From the NCBI GenBank assembly GCA_025055235.1, contig JANWYN010000040.1:1-64000 (forward strand): a stretch of 64,000 bases of DNA, in the 5' to 3' direction. Position numbers and translations under genes: made by a program. The DNA is from Candidatus Roseilinea sp. (GTDB lineage Bacteria > Chloroflexota > Anaerolineae > J036 > Brachytrichaceae). Shown piece by piece: positions 321 to 7,283 of this stretch (position 1 is the first letter of the stretch; the number at the start of each line of letters is the position of its first letter). The notes beneath the pieces were generated by a model. That model searched no databases, was not told the DNA's origin, and saw only the letters and a program-made list of their open reading frames with translations.

Positions 321-943
321 TGGCCGAAATGTTACCTTAACGGTTTGGCGCTGAGTTCACGCCTGGGCTCTCCCGCAGCTACATCCGCGCAGCGCGGTGA
401 TGGGTTGTGGTGTGACGAAGAAGATGCGAGCGAGGGGTGAGTAGGATGTCTAAATTTGTGCTGCTCGAGGATGTGCGGCTCGCTCTCACAAAATCGTGTG
501 TGTTGCAGACGACACATCTATCGCGCGACTGACAAGATAGGGAATGCGCGCAGGGCTTCGTCGCGGGTGAGCATCGCGCTCCTTTGCCAAATGAGTGAGC
601 CAGGCGATGACTTCGGATTCCTCCATCCCTGTGGGATGGCGTTTGTGGTGAAAGAGGATGAAGCGGGTGAATCACTAGACGTAAGACTTGTCCGTGCTGT
701 AAGCATCATGGAGGTGGCGCATCGCATCGCAGAGCTGACCAAGTAAGCGAGGTGGCTTCGGAGTATTCGGCGTGGCTTGTTTTGTCTCCGCAGGGCTTTC
801 AATGGTGCTGATTGTCAGTTGTTTGCACGAATTTGCAAGATAAGCCGCAGGATTACACAGAGCCAAGGCTTTTTGACAAATGTGAGGTTATCCCGCAGAA
901 TTGCAGCAGAATACTAAGTCGGGCGGCACATTTCACCACCATA
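321..943. other. Gene-poor gap with possible gene remnant
   Basis: About 620 bases between the leftward membrane protein and the rightward methylase. The only protein-like stretch is 591-746 on the plus strand: 51 residues with 'DDFGFLHPCGMAFVV' and 'LDVRLVRAVSIMEVAH', acidic then amphipathic helical in character. It could be the tail of a decayed gene, but no family is recognised. On the minus strand, an ATG near 570 preceded by a good AGGAG gives only 18 codons before a stop. Base composition becomes AT-rich from about 790 onward, marking the left edge of the accessory island. No convincing attC, attI or tRNA edge was found here. Confidence 0.35.
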
Positions 944-1777
944 ATGACGTTAAATCAAAAGCTCTTGATACGTTATCCCGGCGGGAAGCGCCGCTTACTA
1001 GTTTTTTTACAGCATCGTCTTCCTATCGTTAATAATATTGATGGGAGATATGTAGAACCGTTTGTCGGAAGTGGGGCTGTTTTTTTCTATCTGCAACCCA
1101 CAAGAGCAATACTTTCAGATGTAAACCCAGAGTTAATAGACCTATACCGAGCCATAAGGTATGCTCCAAGAAAAGTTTGGGCAACTTATTGCGGGTTTGG
1201 GAATACGAAATCCGATTATCATTACATTCGAGATGAATATGAGCCTAAGACGCTTATTGAGAGAGCCTCCAGAACACTATATCTCAATCGTACATGCTTC
1301 AAGGGAATGTGGCGTCATAATCGGGAGGGACGTTTCAATGTGGGATACGGTGGACAGGAGCGACGATGGGTAATTACCGAAGAAGATCTTGTTTTTTGTG
1401 CTTCCGTATTACGCAGAGTATCTCTGAGATGTGAAGACTTTCAGCCCATCATTGATCAAACGCAAAAAGGCGATTTCATTTTCCTTGACCCTCCTTACCG
1501 TCCCGGCCACAAAGAATGTTCAAACAGCCATTACGTTTGGCACCAATTTAGATACAGTGATTACGAAAGACTCGCGAATTCCCTTCAATGTGCAAAATCG
1601 CGGGGTGTTAGATGGGCAATGACCATTTCATCTCATGAAGACATATTACAGCTGCTTAAAGGAAGCTATGTATTAAGAATTCCCCGCGGAACAGGCAAGA
1701 TGCCTGGCATTATTACATCTGATTCTGGAGAAGTGCTTGTCACATCCTACTCGATCGAAGGTGGAAAGAGAATATGA
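944..1777 (+). CDS. Dam-type adenine-N6 DNA methyltransferase (D12 class)
   Basis: Predicted S-adenosylmethionine-dependent adenine-N6 methylase of 277 residues. Motifs in order: 'YPGGK' (11-15), the SAM-binding block 'EPFVGSG' (38-44), 'DVNPEL' (59-64), 'LNRTCFKG' (114-121) and the catalytic 'DPPY' (182-185). This order and the length are those of the Dam/D12 family. An upstream in-frame ATG exists at 812, but the extra 44 residues do not resemble a methylase N-terminus, so the start at 944 just before 'LIRYPGGK' is preferred. The stop codon overlaps the ATG of the next gene, so translation is probably coupled. DNA is strikingly AT-rich with A and T runs unlike the flanking chromosome, indicating horizontal acquisition. 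Likely role: self-protection by methylation within the operon. Target sequence unknown. Confidence 0.9.
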   Translation: MTLNQKLLIRYPGGKRRLLVFLQHRLPIVNNIDGRYVEPFVGSGAVFFYLQPTRAILSDVNPELIDLYRAIRYAPRKVWATYCGFGNTKSDYHYIRDEYEPKTLIERASRTLYLNRTCFKGMWRHNREGRFNVGYGGQERRWVITEEDLVFCASVLRRVSLRCEDFQPIIDQTQKGDFIFLDPPYRPGHKECSNSHYVWHQFRYSDYERLANSLQCAKSRGVRWAMTISSHEDILQLLKGSYVLRIPRGTGKMPGIITSDSGEVLVTSYSIEGGKRI

Positions 1778-3780
1778 AAGACTTTTTCAATAGCGCGGCT
1801 CAACAGCGTCATCCTTTACGAGTTCTCAAGGACTTTCTTGACAGAGAACAAGCTAATGAGCTTGCCAAGAAATACGATGAGATGCGATTTGTGGGCTATG
1901 TTCTCGATATAAACTATAACACTGTCACGATAATTACCTCCGACCCTTATAAAGTTGCAGTTGGTGGTATACCGCGCAATTCGTTGCTAATAATGACGCC
2001 TGCGAAACAAGAGAGAATAGCCACTCCCCACTTCACGCTCCTGCGTGTTCTGGACGCGGCTCCTACGCCATTGAGTAAGGAGACACAGCAGACATATTTT
2101 GAGCTACAAAAAAAGTCAATGCCAGAGCTCGACATTTTCACGCAGTCCGAGCTACAGTGGGGAGCATTAAATACGGAAGTGCTTGGAATGTTCTATCCCC
2201 ATCCTGAGAAACAAGATGCAGTAGAGTTCTCGGGGGACATGAACAATTTTGTCAGTGCTCACAAGTATCGCGTCTACGCTCCTGATGCTGCTATCTTGGA
2301 CCTAGTGATAAATTCACTTGTCTCGCAAGACAAGAGATTCAAGATAGGCGCTTTGCGACTGACAGAATGTCGGCTACCGTTGCCAGACAAACCGCTTTTG
2401 CAAGTTCCAGTTTACGTATCCCCAAGGGATTTTCTTGCATCTCGAACAGCGATGTTTGGGAAAACTCGTCTTGGTAAATCCAACGTCGTGAAACTTATCG
2501 CCCAGAGTATTCTTGATGCTACTGTGCAAGACAGCAATGTAGGGCAACTGATTTTTGACATCAATGGTGAATATGCAAACGATAACTCGCAGGACGGCAG
2601 CAAATCTCTGAGAAGCGCCAATCCTGATCGTTGTGTTGTTTATGCACTGACCCCTAAACCCGCTACTCCTTCTCGGCCCTTGAAACTGAATTTTTACGAA
2701 CAGCCTGACACGGCGCAGAATATCTTGGCGAGCCTAATTACTCAAGATAATCGCGCCACATCGGATTATATTCGCCGCTTCATGAGCGTTGAGCTTTTGT
2801 CATTGGAAGAAATCAAAAAAATGAATGCGGGAAGTGAGAAAACGCGAATTTACCGCAAAATACAAATGTTTTGGGCCATACTCCAAAAGGCTGGCTTTCA
2901 GGCGGACGAAAAACGGCTAATAGCCACAGCACCATCAGGTCAACCTCCAAGCGGATTTAATCCTGGTTTCAGGCAAGAGTTGCGAAGTGCAGCATATTCT
3001 GCTACTGGAGTTCAGACTGTGCCACAGCCGCCTCGAACATTAGACGATCTTATGCGTGAGATGGAGATTATAGCCAGGTTTCGACGGGACAATCCGAGTA
3101 ATCCAAGCTTGACCAGCCAGAGTGGCAATGCGCTTTTTGATCCAGATGACATCGCGCTACTAGAGTTTCTTGAGCCGCCTCCTGGCCGAAGTGGCCCAGC
3201 AATAATCCAACCATACCGCATTTATCATCATCCTCAAGCAAGCGATTTCGTAAAAGAGATCCTGAAGCTCTTGGATGATGGCAAGACTGTCATACTCGAC
3301 TTGGGTAATGCTCATCCTGTGCTTTTGGAATACTTCTCAGATTTGTTATCCAAAGCCGTTTTCAGTCACCAAGTTGACAAGTTTAGCAATGACAAGTTGG
3401 GAGATAAATACATTCAACTGTACTTTGAAGAAGCTCATAACCTCTTTCCACGCCAGAAAGAGCCAAAGGACATCTATAGCCGCTTTGCAAAGGAAGGAGC
3501 AAAGTACCATATAGGGATTGTCTATTCAACACAATCCCCGTCCACAATAAGTGGCGATCTTTTGGCTCAAACTGAGAATTTCTTTGTTGCTCATATGTCA
3601 TCGCAAGATGAAGTGAACGTGCTGGCGAAAATGAACGTGGCTTATGAAAGCATGAAGGATGACATATTGCGTGCAAAAACGCCAGGATATATTCGAATGC
3701 TAACCCGTTCGCACAGATTTGTTGTACCGATACAAGCGCTGAAATTTGAGCCGAATGCCAGTCAACCATCACTATTGTGA
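1774..3780 (+). CDS. HerA-type hexameric DNA translocase ATPase
   Basis: A 668-residue ATPase of the HerA/FtsK superfamily. The N-terminal ~200 residues are beta-rich, like the HerA-ATP-synthase barrel. Walker A is 'GKTRLGKS' (229-236), followed by 'NVVKLIAQSI'. A strand ending in 'VILDLGNAH' lies around 506-514. Walker B is 'LYFEEAHNLFP' (around 549-559), with Glu where Asp is more common. 'YSTQSP' (584-589) plus 'TENFFVAHM' match the HerA sensor/arginine-finger region. HerA proteins form hexameric rings that pump DNA and work with NurA nucleases. The ATG overlaps the methylase stop (ATGA), and nine bases separate its stop from the NurA-like gene, so the three form one operon. The AT-rich composition matches its neighbours. 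It has the size of a full-length HerA and no visible damage. Confidence 0.85.
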   Translation: MKDFFNSAAQQRHPLRVLKDFLDREQANELAKKYDEMRFVGYVLDINYNTVTIITSDPYKVAVGGIPRNSLLIMTPAKQERIATPHFTLLRVLDAAPTPLSKETQQTYFELQKKSMPELDIFTQSELQWGALNTEVLGMFYPHPEKQDAVEFSGDMNNFVSAHKYRVYAPDAAILDLVINSLVSQDKRFKIGALRLTECRLPLPDKPLLQVPVYVSPRDFLASRTAMFGKTRLGKSNVVKLIAQSILDATVQDSNVGQLIFDINGEYANDNSQDGSKSLRSANPDRCVVYALTPKPATPSRPLKLNFYEQPDTAQNILASLITQDNRATSDYIRRFMSVELLSLEEIKKMNAGSEKTRIYRKIQMFWAILQKAGFQADEKRLIATAPSGQPPSGFNPGFRQELRSAAYSATGVQTVPQPPRTLDDLMREMEIIARFRRDNPSNPSLTSQSGNALFDPDDIALLEFLEPPPGRSGPAIIQPYRIYHHPQASDFVKEILKLLDDGKTVILDLGNAHPVLLEYFSDLLSKAVFSHQVDKFSNDKLGDKYIQLYFEEAHNLFPRQKEPKDIYSRFAKEGAKYHIGIVYSTQSPSTISGDLLAQTENFFVAHMSSQDEVNVLAKMNVAYESMKDDILRAKTPGYIRMLTRSHRFVVPIQALKFEPNASQPSLL

Positions 3781-3789
3781 GTCAAATAT

Positions 3790-5130
3790 ATGCCATATCA
3801 AGCAGGAAGAAATCTGCCAGGTGAACATGCCAGTAAGCTTGGGCATTTAGAAGTACTTAAGAGTCCACTAGTCCAACAAATTGTTGATAATTTTGAGCAG
3901 CCTGAAGCGGTAGAAACCTCCACTAATATCAAGTGGGAGCCCTTCCCGCATCTTGGCGAACCTCTTGATTTAGTCTTTGCTGTTGACGGTTCGTGGCAAC
4001 CCGTGACAGATGAACGTCCACCGCACAAAAGTATCGCGTTTATCAAGACAGCCTTGATGAAGGTAGATCAAATTGCCTTAAGCCGAATTGATAAAGATGA
4101 ACCGCATCCTTTGGCGCTACGAGACTTGATGGCTGAAGCCGCCTTATATCATGCAACCGCTTTTCCCTTAAAACACGTCTATTCTAAAGGACTCAGTGTC
4201 TACGATGCAATTCGCCAGATTATTTTCGAGTCACTTAAGGACGCTTCTCTTAACGGGGAAGTGATGGAAACATTTAAGTGGCTTGCTTATGAAAAGTGGT
4301 CTAGCTCACCCCGTTCCTCATTACCCCCTTTCCAATGTCCGCACAGTGAAATTGATGGTGTGGCACATGATGCGACTCTGAGTTTTGATGCGGAAGAAGG
4401 AAAATGTGCGACTTGCGGCAAGAAGATTTTTATCACTGACATGCTCGGTTTTCATTTGGAAATGAGCGAAAATGCCGCATCAGAAAGTGTCGCTACGGCG
4501 TACATGAATATTCATGAGACCTTGCTGTTATTCACAGGTGTTCGCTACTTCTGGGAATCTAGTCGTGAAACGCTCAAACGCAGTTTGTTTCTGAAAGATG
4601 GTCCCTTGCAGATTCGCGCTCAATATTCGAAATTGGTCAACCCTATTAGAAATTTCTTGTTGCATGCTTATTCGCAAGGATATCCTATTAGCATAGTGGG
4701 CCAAGAAAAGACGGGCATCTTTGTTGATCACTTAAATTTATTGCTGGGTAAGAATGTACCATCCAATCACTTTTTTATCCCTGACCACATTTATATTTGT
4801 GAACAGATTCAGAGCAGACCTTCCAGTGGTGCTCCCTACGGAAGAGATACAAACTATGGGGCAAAAGTCTTTATAGTAATGAACGAACGCTGCCGCCTAG
4901 TATTGAACATACCTATTTCCGTTAGAATGAGTGAGTTCATTTACAGTCCTGACTCTTCTAAGCTTATCAATCTCGACAGGATACTGGCTACCCTTCCAGG
5001 GATAATAAGCAGCAGGCACGAAAATGCACTGATCCCGATAGAGATGGCAAACTCCATAGCATCTTTGTCAACATATCCTTCAGCTCAAGTTTTGAAGCTT
5101 TTTGCTGAAGCTATTATCAAACACAAATAG
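3790..5130 (+). CDS. NurA-domain nuclease with zinc-ribbon insert
   Basis: A 446-residue protein recognised as NurA-like by 'FAVDGSWQ' around residues 63-70: the 'DGS' triad supplies a metal-binding Asp (D66) in this RNase H-fold nuclease family. A second conserved-looking block, 'LFLKDGPLQIRAQYS' (266-280), offers another acidic ligand (D270). Between them lies a probable zinc ribbon: C183-P-H185, then C206-A-T-C209. Compared with short archaeal NurA, this protein is long because of the insert. HerA-NurA pairs resect DNA ends in archaea. In bacteria, such pairs beside a methylase suggest restriction of unmethylated foreign DNA; that role is inferred. The gene ends two bases before an attC-like element. 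No signal peptide or membrane segment. Confidence 0.72.
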   Translation: MPYQAGRNLPGEHASKLGHLEVLKSPLVQQIVDNFEQPEAVETSTNIKWEPFPHLGEPLDLVFAVDGSWQPVTDERPPHKSIAFIKTALMKVDQIALSRIDKDEPHPLALRDLMAEAALYHATAFPLKHVYSKGLSVYDAIRQIIFESLKDASLNGEVMETFKWLAYEKWSSSPRSSLPPFQCPHSEIDGVAHDATLSFDAEEGKCATCGKKIFITDMLGFHLEMSENAASESVATAYMNIHETLLLFTGVRYFWESSRETLKRSLFLKDGPLQIRAQYSKLVNPIRNFLLHAYSQGYPISIVGQEKTGIFVDHLNLLLGKNVPSNHFFIPDHIYICEQIQSRPSSGAPYGRDTNYGAKVFIVMNERCRLVLNIPISVRMSEFIYSPDSSKLINLDRILATLPGIISSRHENALIPIEMANSIASLSTYPSAQVLKLFAEAIIKHK

Positions 5131-5132
5131 CT

Positions 5133-5202
5133 GCCCAACAAGTGGTTTCAGCCGACCCACTCCGCTTCGCTACGCGGGCGGCTGAAGCGCAGGCCGTTAG
5201 GC
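5133..5202 (+). repeat. attC-like integron recombination site
   Basis: A 70-bp imperfect palindrome bounded by GCCCAAC (5133-5139, fits RYYYAAC) and GTTAGGC (5196-5202, fits GTTRRRY). The inner arms TTCAGCCG (5147-5154) and CGGCTGAA (5179-5186) are perfectly complementary, and the apex is rich in CGCTTCGC, as in many chromosomal-integron attC sites. It starts two bases after the NurA-like stop codon, and the next ATG (5207) lies four bases after the GTTAGGC box. That is the spacing expected of consecutive gene cassettes. No integron integrase gene is in the window. Confidence 0.82.
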
Positions 5203-5206
5203 ACAT

Positions 5207-5806
5207 ATGAGCATGCCTATGCGCGCGATTCGCCATGCTGTGATTGCACTTCTATTTGCCGGCTGGATCGTCGCTTGTTCGACGACTCGATCGAGCGATC
5301 CGTCACCCGCTCCTTCCCCCGTGCCGTCGTACACACCGGCGACGATTCCATCATCCGCACCATCCGCCTCGGCCTTGGTGGGCATCTGGCAAGCCTCGCC
5401 CAGCATGGGCAGCGGCTGGAACGATACCTACCGGTTTTGGAAGGATGGCAGGTTCCGCTTTCACACCAGTCAGATGAATTGCTCGGCCCGAGAGATTGGC
5501 TATGCGGGTTCCTGGCAGATAGAGGGACAGCAACTGATCCTCTACATCGTGGAGCGATCGGTGATCGAGGGTGGCACGTTGGCACCGGCGGGCCCCGCTT
5601 GCGCCACCCAGTACGAAATTGTGGGAGGCAACCTGGCAGTGCAGTCACTCTACGTGCCTGAAAAGAAGACCCTCGCGCTGAGCGAGATCAAGATGGATGA
5701 TTTTGGCTACGACTTGAAGCGTCCGACTGTTTTCATCGCCGATCAGCAATATTGGCAATTCGATACCGACCCCGAGGCTTATCCCGAATCCTCTCCCACC
5801 CGGTAG
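5207..5806 (+). CDS. Secreted lipoprotein, lipocalin-like, probable cassette gene
   Basis: 199 residues with a type II signal peptide. A basic start and hydrophobic core are followed by lipobox 'IVAC' (Cys at 24), then a Ser/Pro/Thr/Ala-rich linker to about residue 55. The globular part begins 'LVGIWQASPSMGSGW' and alternates short beta-like stretches ('YRFWKDGRFRF', 'GYAGSWQIEGQQLILYIV'). This resembles small 'lipocalin-like' proteins that open with a G-x-W motif, but no function can be assigned. Two Cys at about 91 and 129 could form a disulfide. The ATG follows directly on the attC-like site, as in integron cassettes. No intact attC follows the gene; only a weak half-similarity lies around 5824-5860. 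Confidence 0.7.
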   Translation: MSMPMRAIRHAVIALLFAGWIVACSTTRSSDPSPAPSPVPSYTPATIPSSAPSASALVGIWQASPSMGSGWNDTYRFWKDGRFRFHTSQMNCSAREIGYAGSWQIEGQQLILYIVERSVIEGGTLAPAGPACATQYEIVGGNLAVQSLYVPEKKTLALSEIKMDDFGYDLKRPTVFIADQQYWQFDTDPEAYPESSPTR

Positions 5807-5940
5807 CGGTCTTTATTGGTGGTATTCGCTTGATCAGCCGGCTTCTCGCTTCGCTGCCATTGCCTTTTTGCGACCCTACCGATCCGTTTGTGCCCGGAAT
5901 GGCAATCAACATCGCTGACGCTCAGTAGAATCGCTTTCGA

Positions 5941-6465
5941 ATGAACCGGAGAATCCCTAAATTAACCGTTGCCTCCTTCCAACCGGGCGAACAGGTGATC
6001 TGGTGGAAACGCATCCCGGGCGGCGACTACGTTTATCCCGTGCCGGCGGTCGTGATCGGTGCGACGGCAAAGCGTATCAAGATTCAGGCAGACGACGATG
6101 GACAAGCCGTCATCCGCTACGTGCCCCCGGAGAGCCTCCAGAAGCGGCCTGCAACCTATGAAGCGCAGACGCAGGAATACGTCTTGGAATTGCTTCGCCA
6201 GGAGCGCTCCTATCTCACTGCCGAGTACGGCGTCAAACGCATTGGAGTCTTCGGCTCGTATGCCAAAGGCTCGGCGAACGAGACGAGCGATGTGGACATC
6301 ATCGTGGAGTTCGAACGTCCCCTGGGGTTCAAGTTCATCGAGTTCGCTGAGCATCTCGAACGCCTGCTCGGCAGAAAGGTGGATGTGTTGACCCCCGCCG
6401 GGCTTCGAGGAATCAGAATCCCTCACATCGCACGAGACATTGCGGAGAGCATCGTGTATGTCTGA
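5941..6465 (+). CDS. mntA: MntA-type nucleotidyltransferase antitoxin with fused N-terminal SH3-like domain
   Basis: 174 residues in two parts. Residues 1-72 form a small beta-rich module ('FQPGEQVIWWKRIPGG', 'AKRIKIQADDDG', 'IRYVPPESLQ') that resembles SH3-like domains and probably derives from a separate small protein. Residues 75-174 are a minimal nucleotidyltransferase with the family motif 'GSYAKGSANETSDVD' (around 104-118) and a following 'IIVEF'. MntA antitoxins neutralise HepT RNase toxins by AMPylating a Tyr near the HepT active site. The gene overlaps the ATG of the downstream hepT-like frame, the usual order. The fused N-terminal domain is unusual. It sits at the right end of the accessory island, back in GC-rich DNA. 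Confidence 0.85.
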   Translation: MNRRIPKLTVASFQPGEQVIWWKRIPGGDYVYPVPAVVIGATAKRIKIQADDDGQAVIRYVPPESLQKRPATYEAQTQEYVLELLRQERSYLTAEYGVKRIGVFGSYAKGSANETSDVDIIVEFERPLGFKFIEFAEHLERLLGRKVDVLTPAGLRGIRIPHIARDIAESIVYV

Positions 6466-6798
6466 GCGGACAGACAGGGACTTCCTGAGCGACATTCAAG
6501 AAGCGATCCGTCGCATGGCGGAATACACAACAGGCGGGTCTTCTTGGAAGACGCGAAGACGCAGGACGCCGTCATTCGTAACCTTGAGATCATTGGCGAA
6601 GCAACGAAGCACCTGTCGAAGGAATTCAGAGAGCGACACCCCGATATCCCCTGGAAGAGCATGGCTGGCGCGCGAGACCGATTGATACACCACTATTTTG
6701 GCGTCAACCTCGACATCGTATGGCGAATCGTAACGGATGAATTGCTCGAGGTGGCTTCACGACTCACCGAAATTTTGCGCGAAGAAGACAACGCCTGA
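6458..6798 (+). pseudogene. hepT: HepT-type RNase toxin gene, frameshifted
   Basis: Frame one, from the ATG at 6458, reads 'MSERTDRDFLSDIQEAIR' and then 'RMAEYTTGG', a normal HepT N-terminus. Homology then jumps to another frame at 6541: 'FLEDAKTQDAVIRNLEII', then 'GEATKHL', 'RDRLIHHYFGVN' and an end at 6798. Compared with typical HepT proteins, about three residues plus a reading-frame shift are missing around 6536-6540, so a small deletion is likely. The Rx4-6H catalytic motif ('RDRLIHHY') survives in the second half, but no single frame encodes the whole protein. It overlaps mntA by eight bases. The toxin is therefore probably inactive, leaving an orphan antitoxin. A sequencing error would be the alternative. 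Confidence 0.8.
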
Positions 6799-7283
6799 TC
6801 ACCGTCTGTTCAGGGAGAGCGCCTGCCCTCGCATCTCCCCAAGAACCCGGCCCGCACATGCCAGACAGCCGCCGTCAGCCGCGCAGTGCAGCCGTCCACG
6901 TCGTAGGTCGGCTTAGCCTCGGTGAGCTCAACGCCGCGCGTATGCGAACGGGGCTGCACTTGTCACGAAGACACAAATCGCTTCGCACCTTCGTAGTCCT
7001 CCCGAGGACGGAAGAAGCCGCGCGCCGTTTCGGACGCCTGCGCACCAGGCATCCGGAACGGCGCGCGTCCTCTTTCCTGAAGAGCGGGTGCGATGTGCTG
7101 CGATGTCCCCGACCAGATTCACACCAACAACTTCCAACCCTCACTGCTTGAAGCAGGCTGCGATGTGCTGCGATGCGCCCCGCCCATGCTGGAGTCTACC
7201 ACAAACATGATACAAAGTAAATGCAAACATTTGACAAGGCTTGTTTTTGCCGCTTCGAGCCCGGCGCAGTAACATTCCAACCC
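6799..7283. other. Non-coding gap with hairpin and short direct repeat
   Basis: About 485 bases without a credible gene. It holds a 19-bp inverted repeat with two mismatches (7020-7038 against 7048-7066, nine-base loop). A 17-bp direct repeat TGCGATGTGCTGCGATG lies at 7089-7105 and 7159-7175, each copy preceded by GAAG and followed by CCCCG within a few bases. Open frames across this interval on both strands are Arg/Ala-rich and look like composition artefacts. A TTGACA lies at 7231-7236 ahead of the amidohydrolase gene, but no good -10 box was found at the right distance. Confidence 0.6.

Follow-up and report, generated by a model that had tools for sequence, protein, structure and literature searches.

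The window analysed in this work is the whole stretch of 64,000 nucleotides (64 kb) taken from a contig of Candidatus Roseilinea sp.; the lineage label of an earlier note on this DNA, which spoke of GC-rich filamentous lineages, was corrected to Anaerolineae (Chloroflexota). Three genes lie on the forward strand near its start, within a segment (919-5196) described below as a gene cassette. The first (944-1777, + strand) encodes a Dam-family N6-adenine DNA methyltransferase of 277 aa, with a DPPY motif and matches to PF02086 (5.5e-38), to TIGR00571 (185.8 bits, cut-off 114.85) and to the PADLOC model MTase_II (2.8e-58). The second (1774-3780, + strand) encodes a HerA/TdpA-like ATPase of the hexameric type (668 aa), with the Walker A motif GKTRLGKS and a match to PF01935 (6.2e-13); its best sequence match in the PDB was TdpA (8wet_A, 1.3e-25), and it matched the PADLOC HerA models but fell well short of the cut-offs that NCBIfam sets for anti-phage HerA. 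The third (3790-5130, + strand) encodes a NurA/TdpB-like nuclease of 446 aa with a VDGS motif, assigned from its predicted fold and the matches of its distant relatives to NurA. No direct Pfam match and no PADLOC match were obtained for this protein, and PDB sequence searches with it returned nothing relevant and no match to TdpB. Four of six distant relatives from the class reached or exceeded the 21-bit cut-off of PF09376 (NurA), the best of them with 58.6 bits. Structure prediction from seven sequences was poor (pLDDT 40.7), and the prediction obtained with 18 sequences (pLDDT 86.4) was used. In fold comparisons the predicted structure came nearest to chain G of TdpAB, which has 358 aa (Z 20.8, rmsd 4.0, 309 aligned), at a sequence identity of about 14%, and next to NurA (Z 14.7); judging from the title of the structure entry, chain G would be TdpB.

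All three genes are open in the window. The dN/dS values with respect to the same genes of G006, a genome of the same genus, were 0.099 for the methyltransferase, 0.047 for the ATPase and 0.040 for the nuclease; such low values (0.04-0.10), together with the open frames, indicated that the unit has been kept working. In the list of open reading frames the cassette had no fourth gene in the direction of the operon, and no known type II restriction endonuclease was found in it, the partners of the methyltransferase being the HerA-like and NurA-like proteins.

An attC site (5133-5202, + strand) directly follows the nuclease gene. Its boxes, GCCCAAC (5133-5139) and GTTAGGC (5196-5202), agree with the R''/R' consensus (RYYYAAC, GTTRRRY) and enclose paired inner arms of eight bases each (TTCAGCCG/CGGCTGAA); the site starts 2 bases past the stop codon of nurA (5128-5130), and an ATG follows 4 bases on, at 5207. 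The earlier note had proposed an attC-like site from these boxes, arms and spacings, all of which were verified. In a scan of the 64-kb window this was the sole place where the boxes and a strong inner stem occurred together, and when the window was simulated as a first-order Markov chain, such sites averaged 0.01 per run, with any site at all in one of 100 runs. Folding of the single strand was weakly better than that of shuffled sequences (z of -1.41 and -1.51), so that energy by itself would have missed the site. An Rfam search of the window at gathering thresholds returned a tRNA as the sole match.

The site was scored with a covariance model (R1) whose training set was 16 attC sites from genomes of the same genus and the same family; R1 thus represents relatives' sites and is not the IntegronFinder model. 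A box scan of six stretches with plasmid attC references gave few clear sites, for which reason these were excluded and relatives were used. The 16 sites were picked by eye among 30 profile rows, one duplicate as well as partial and weak rows being dropped. The training set omits the attC of the window and its orthologue in G006; both were among the seven seeds of the nhmmer profile behind those rows, so that R1 is not fully independent of the site. In the 16 sites, 89.1% of cells were paired vs. 80.2% in shuffles, and covariation was 0.285 vs. 0.142. Over the 64-kb window R1 gave 63.9 bits at 5133-5202 (E 7e-14 in the window) vs. 15.7 bits for the runner-up, and the covariance scoring for which the earlier note had called therefore places the site far above background. 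A chance hairpin or terminator at this position was ruled out by the R1 score and the Markov simulation, and 5133-5202 is confirmed as a real attC site. Over the whole genome, R1 returned five places at E <= 0.01, with the attC of the window at the top; the other attC-like sites (C75:40861, C38:19359, C63:16531, and C26:1894) scored from 49.1 to 31.9 bits.

To the left of the three genes lie the remains of a chromosomal integron. The N-terminal part of an intI gene (about 544-743, - strand), interrupted by two stops and with the rest deleted, was recognised by a TIGR02249 match and by identity to G002, of the same genus. The match covers 570-743 (- strand; model positions 2-59, 37.4 bits), with TAG and TGA inside, and the remnant translates as KPPRLLGQLCDAMRHLHDAYSTDKSYV, two stops and FTRFILFHHKRHPTGMEESEVIAWLTHLAKERDA, a sequence similar to that of the intact IntI in G002. 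Compared with the full-length intI/attI of G002, DNA identity was 82% over 574-848 and 94% over 544-573. The attI region (744-918, + strand) is homologous to that of G002 up to 913, the crossover G being at 918, and the first cassette of G002 begins at the same offset from attI as the cassette of the window. The hallmark of integrons, an intI beside attI and divergent from the cassettes, is present in the window in the form of this stop-containing remnant. The earlier note had described a lone attC beside a defence operon; the attC is real, but it is not lone, given the intI/attI remains at 544-918.

The chromosomal flanks place this integron. On the left, the start of a YfhO/polysaccharide-synthase gene (1-336, - strand) is 87% identical to genes of G002 and G006, and the G006 homologue carries YfhO and Polysacc_synt domains. 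This gene adjoins the urocanate hydratase gene (hutU) and intI in G002, and adjoins hutU in G006. The order in G002 is YfhO-like gene, hutU, intI, attI, cassette and attC; in the window the YfhO-like gene is followed by 207 bp and then by the intI remnant, which indicates that a deletion took hutU and most of intI. On the right lies what is left of an arginase-family (hutG-like) gene, a piece of its 3' end (6837-6941, - strand) that is 82% identical to the 3' end of a G006 gene with an Arginase domain. Since in G006 hutU directly adjoins this arginase-family gene, with no integron in between, the integron of the window sits between hutU and the hutG-like gene.

No integron integrase exceeded the TIGR02249 cut-off in the genome that contains the window (G000, estimated 91.6% complete), as its intI is a ruin. 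The earlier note had asked for an intI search and had counted the lack of an integrase in the genome against the integron reading; the search recovered the remnant at 570-743 and no integrase at the family cut-off (0/1), so that this objection is borne out by half. Integrons are frequent in this group, with IntI over the cut-off in 20 of the 60 genomes searched, including four of the eight other genomes of the genus. A second intI remnant, missing a large internal part (model positions 1-96 and then 278-314), occurs in the genome of the window on contig C73 (L031; 256-751); the gene immediately downstream of it resembles FtsY by eye. In G006, a single contig, one intI gene is intact and at least three more are broken or partial, at separate places near C1 469669, 1486233, 1643538, and 2030748.

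The cassette extends over 4278 bp (919-5196, + strand) and comprises the three genes; the homology to the cassettes of G006 and of Meiothermus hypogaeus ends at the attC end. Its 5' junction, GTCGGGC (918-924, + strand), corresponds to GTTRRRY with one T>C change and aligns to GTTGGGCGGCATATTCAC, the start of the G006 cassette, and a deletion ahead of the ATG sets the leaders of the window and of G006 apart. The GC content was 44% in the cassette before attC and 64% in positions 7201-64000 of the window. Directly 3' of attC lies a lipoprotein-like ORF (5207-5806, + strand) with a weak DUF5640 match below the cut-off, which is possibly the next cassette; a search of 5203-7200 for an attC 3' of it found none, also when the filters were disabled (best 8.4 bits). 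Between the attC and the arginase-family remnant lies a nucleotidyltransferase/HepT-like pair (5941-6798) of the MNT-HEPN toxin-antitoxin type. Counterpoints to the cassette reading are the lack of a functional integrase in the genome, the 5' junction GTCGGGC and the differing leader, the relatives of the operon that have no neighbouring attC (see below) and the unremarkable hairpin energy. Even so, the dam, HerA/TdpA-like and NurA/TdpB-like genes almost certainly form one cassette in the remains of a chromosomal integron. The attC closes, on its 3' side, a cassette that holds the whole operon, which supports the suggestion of cassette-borne defence genes made in the earlier note.

The same three genes are found in G006, 89% identical over window positions 943-5202, where they lie between two attC sites in an array beside a full-length IntI (435 bits, cut-off 265). 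A scan for close relatives of the nuclease in one genome per species (84,980 species) led to seven loci: M. hypogaeus (95% identity), Chloroflexi Tumba.bins.16 (93%), Anaerolineae A05DMB-I-30 (91%, partial), Gloeomargarita (86%), Blastocatellia (75%), Anaerolineaceae X2 (67%), and Metabacillus (44%). An attC directly follows nurA in five genomes (window, G006, M. hypogaeus, Tumba.bins.16, and A05DMB-I-30), and in Tumba.bins.16 an additional attC precedes dam. No attC adjoins the nuclease gene in Gloeomargarita, Blastocatellia, Anaerolineaceae X2 or Metabacillus. Within the class, the nuclease profile matched 15 of 396 genomes, with an adjoining attC in four of the 15 (window, G006, G121, which is the Tumba genome, and G028); with the other 11 lacking a neighbouring attC, the operon family is for the most part not cassette-borne. 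The context of the operon varies among relatives, and the fixed chromosomal arrangement that the earlier note had named as evidence against its proposal was not found. In the Gloeomargarita copy (L129 1-340), GTTGGGT occurs shortly before dam, as at the start of a cassette, with no attC behind the nuclease gene; this operon is possibly a cassette after loss of its attC.

One pair of cassettes comes from different phyla. Those of G006 and M. hypogaeus (Deinococcota) are 4312 bp each and show no differences (0/4312). Identity runs from the TT of the 5' core to the G of the attC R' box, stopping at G|TT at both ends, and beyond these points the flanks are unrelated on both sides; the pair thus presents one unit, from TT to the G of the R' box, at different places, as required of a gene cassette. 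In M. hypogaeus the cassette is flanked by an HlyD-family gene on one side and a gene for outer-membrane efflux on the other. In the closest relative, a sister Meiothermus (G065, flank 97% identical), the same two points enclose another cassette of 778 bp (L143:3110-3921), which has its own attC, a 223-aa membrane ORF and the same junctions as in M. hypogaeus, and no integron was found near it in the stretch read. The HlyD-family and efflux genes are adjacent in G073. M. hypogaeus itself has an intI remnant elsewhere (L137, G060 C107), with an attC about 2 kb away and no integrase over the cut-off. From these alignments, the Meiothermus point is, in all appearance, a recurrent cassette-swapping site with no neighbouring integron in the stretch read, and the pattern is the one that a cassette leaves when site-specific recombination inserts it at a G|TT of the chromosome, as at attG sites. 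As far as DNA identity can tell, the pair shows that complete systems of several genes can cross from one phylum to another in the form of integron cassettes. As side observations, the 223-aa membrane ORF of G065 resembles by eye a CPBP protease, and in the intI remnant of M. hypogaeus the N-terminus is joined to the last 26 positions, a deletion much like that on contig C73.

These data bear on several other readings. The attC could be a solitary one with no integrase, derived from a decayed small cassette, with the three genes forming an ordinary chromosomal or island operon that adjoins it by chance, a reading in line with the lack of attC in most relatives of the operon (11 of 15 in the class, and loci L129, L131, L132, and L135) and with the four other attC-like sites scattered in the genome at E <= 0.01. 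However, the transferred unit, as delimited by G006 and M. hypogaeus, begins some 50 bp ahead of dam and ends within the R' box of attC, which puts all three genes inside the cassette, and in Tumba an attC also lies ahead of dam; we consider an adjoining operon highly improbable. It is equally hard to credit that another element (a transposon, a phage, or natural transformation with homologous recombination) moved the unit with attC as a passenger. Entry of DNA into the cell needs another vehicle regardless, and an integrase over the cut-off was found in none of four genomes (M. hypogaeus, Tumba.bins.16, Gloeomargarita, and Blastocatellia). Nevertheless, the G006/M. hypogaeus identity breaks off on either side precisely at the G|TT crossover, the flanks having nothing in common, the same Meiothermus point exchanged a different cassette in the sister species, and the cassette genes had no match in phages and a single 3% HerA match in plasmids. 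Cross-contamination between assemblies would also account for identity over 4312 bp between a Chloroflexota and a Meiothermus genome. This is very improbable in view of the different chromosomal flanks of the two copies on both sides and of the other cassette held by the same site in the 97%-identical relative, which marks it as a genuine cassette-accepting site.

The intI remnant, the attI, the ends of the cassette, the intact sister array, the identical copy in another phylum and the exact junctions can all be read in the DNA. We propose that the cassette 919-5196 entered, at the attI, a chromosomal integron located between hutU and the hutG-like gene, and that a later deletion of hutU and most of intI left it stranded in first position. 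IntI, acting in trans, would fold the attC and recombine it with a G|TT, whether in attI, in a further attC or at a secondary site in the chromosome, and is presumed to have been the agent of each recombination event. As the genes stand first after attI, they may be transcribed from the promoter of the integron.

As regards function, adenine methylation would mark self DNA, and the HerA/TdpA-like motor would feed unmarked DNA to the NurA/TdpB-like nuclease. The cassette suggests a system of HerA/NurA type for which adenine methylation is the guard, and a restriction-like, putatively defensive role is probable. The three genes might instead serve DNA repair, since HerA-NurA has classically been proposed for end resection (PMC12977600), although antiviral defence is favoured there by the same source. 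Repair is unlikely for this set of genes: the pair is coupled here to a methyltransferase, is mobile and has a patchy distribution (15 of 396 genomes of the class), and the ATPase is closest to TdpA by sequence and the nuclease, in its fold, to chain G of TdpAB.

In TdpABC defence, phosphorothioation serves as the self mark, a motor-nuclease destroys unmarked DNA, and TdpC is the phosphorothioation enzyme. The cassette resembles this system in that its ATPase is nearest to TdpA by sequence and its nuclease nearest to TdpAB chain G by fold (8wet, 8wfd), and differs from it in having a Dam-type methyltransferase in the place of TdpC. Sir2-HerA and DUF4297-HerA share with the cassette a HerA-type ATPase with a partner enzyme, whereas the partners in the window are a NurA/TdpB-type nuclease and a methyltransferase. 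Type II restriction-modification likewise includes a methyltransferase, but no known type II endonuclease accompanies that of the cassette.

Integrons are shufflers of small, mostly single-gene cassettes and have been studied chiefly in Pseudomonadota. Decayed forms are known, intI pseudogenes amounting to about a third of those surveyed (PMC2426708). Such pseudo-integrons and the window share an intI pseudogene, attI, a first cassette and attC in canonical order; the window differs in having one recognisable attC left and a cassette of 4.3 kb with three genes. Integron cassettes with anti-phage defence genes have also been reported (Darracq 2025, Kieffer 2025, and Getz 2025, as relayed in PMC12409362 and PMC12444791) and, like the window, carry putative defence genes as cassettes. 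According to section 5 of PMC12409362, which relays Darracq et al., these cassettes are compact and streamlined, and no system exceeding two genes occurs among them; the cassette of the window, with three genes over 4.3 kb and from Anaerolineae, would be an exception. If so, the supposed limit on the size and gene number of cassette-borne defence would be broken. The secondary chromosomal sites termed attG (Loot 2024, as relayed in PMC12901181 and PMC12444791) resemble the M. hypogaeus insertion in being a chromosomal G|TT with no neighbouring integron; in E. coli a broad scatter is reported in those accounts, whereas in Meiothermus one point received two cassettes in sister species, in a natural inter-phylum case. 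No report of this cassette was found in the mostly open-access literature on integrons or HerA-NurA that was covered. Defence cassettes and decayed integrons were thus already known, and the new element is the three-gene cassette of 4.3 kb that is under strong purifying selection and occurs in identical form across phyla. It would offer a direct case of a multi-gene putative defence unit crossing phyla by site-specific recombination, both at attI and at a site outside integrons. We lean, by a little, towards regarding it as a new mobile immune unit, in which a methylation-guarded TdpAB/HerA-NurA restriction system is carried whole as a cassette and circulates between phyla of shared habitats via integrons and, where no integron is resident, via cassette-swapping chromosomal G|TT sites.

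An integrase on plasmid pB of Kovacikia minuta (L100) was 64% identical to an IntI of this genus, far more than the 49% for class 1; this similarity suggests that integrons have been exchanged between Chloroflexota and cyanobacteria.
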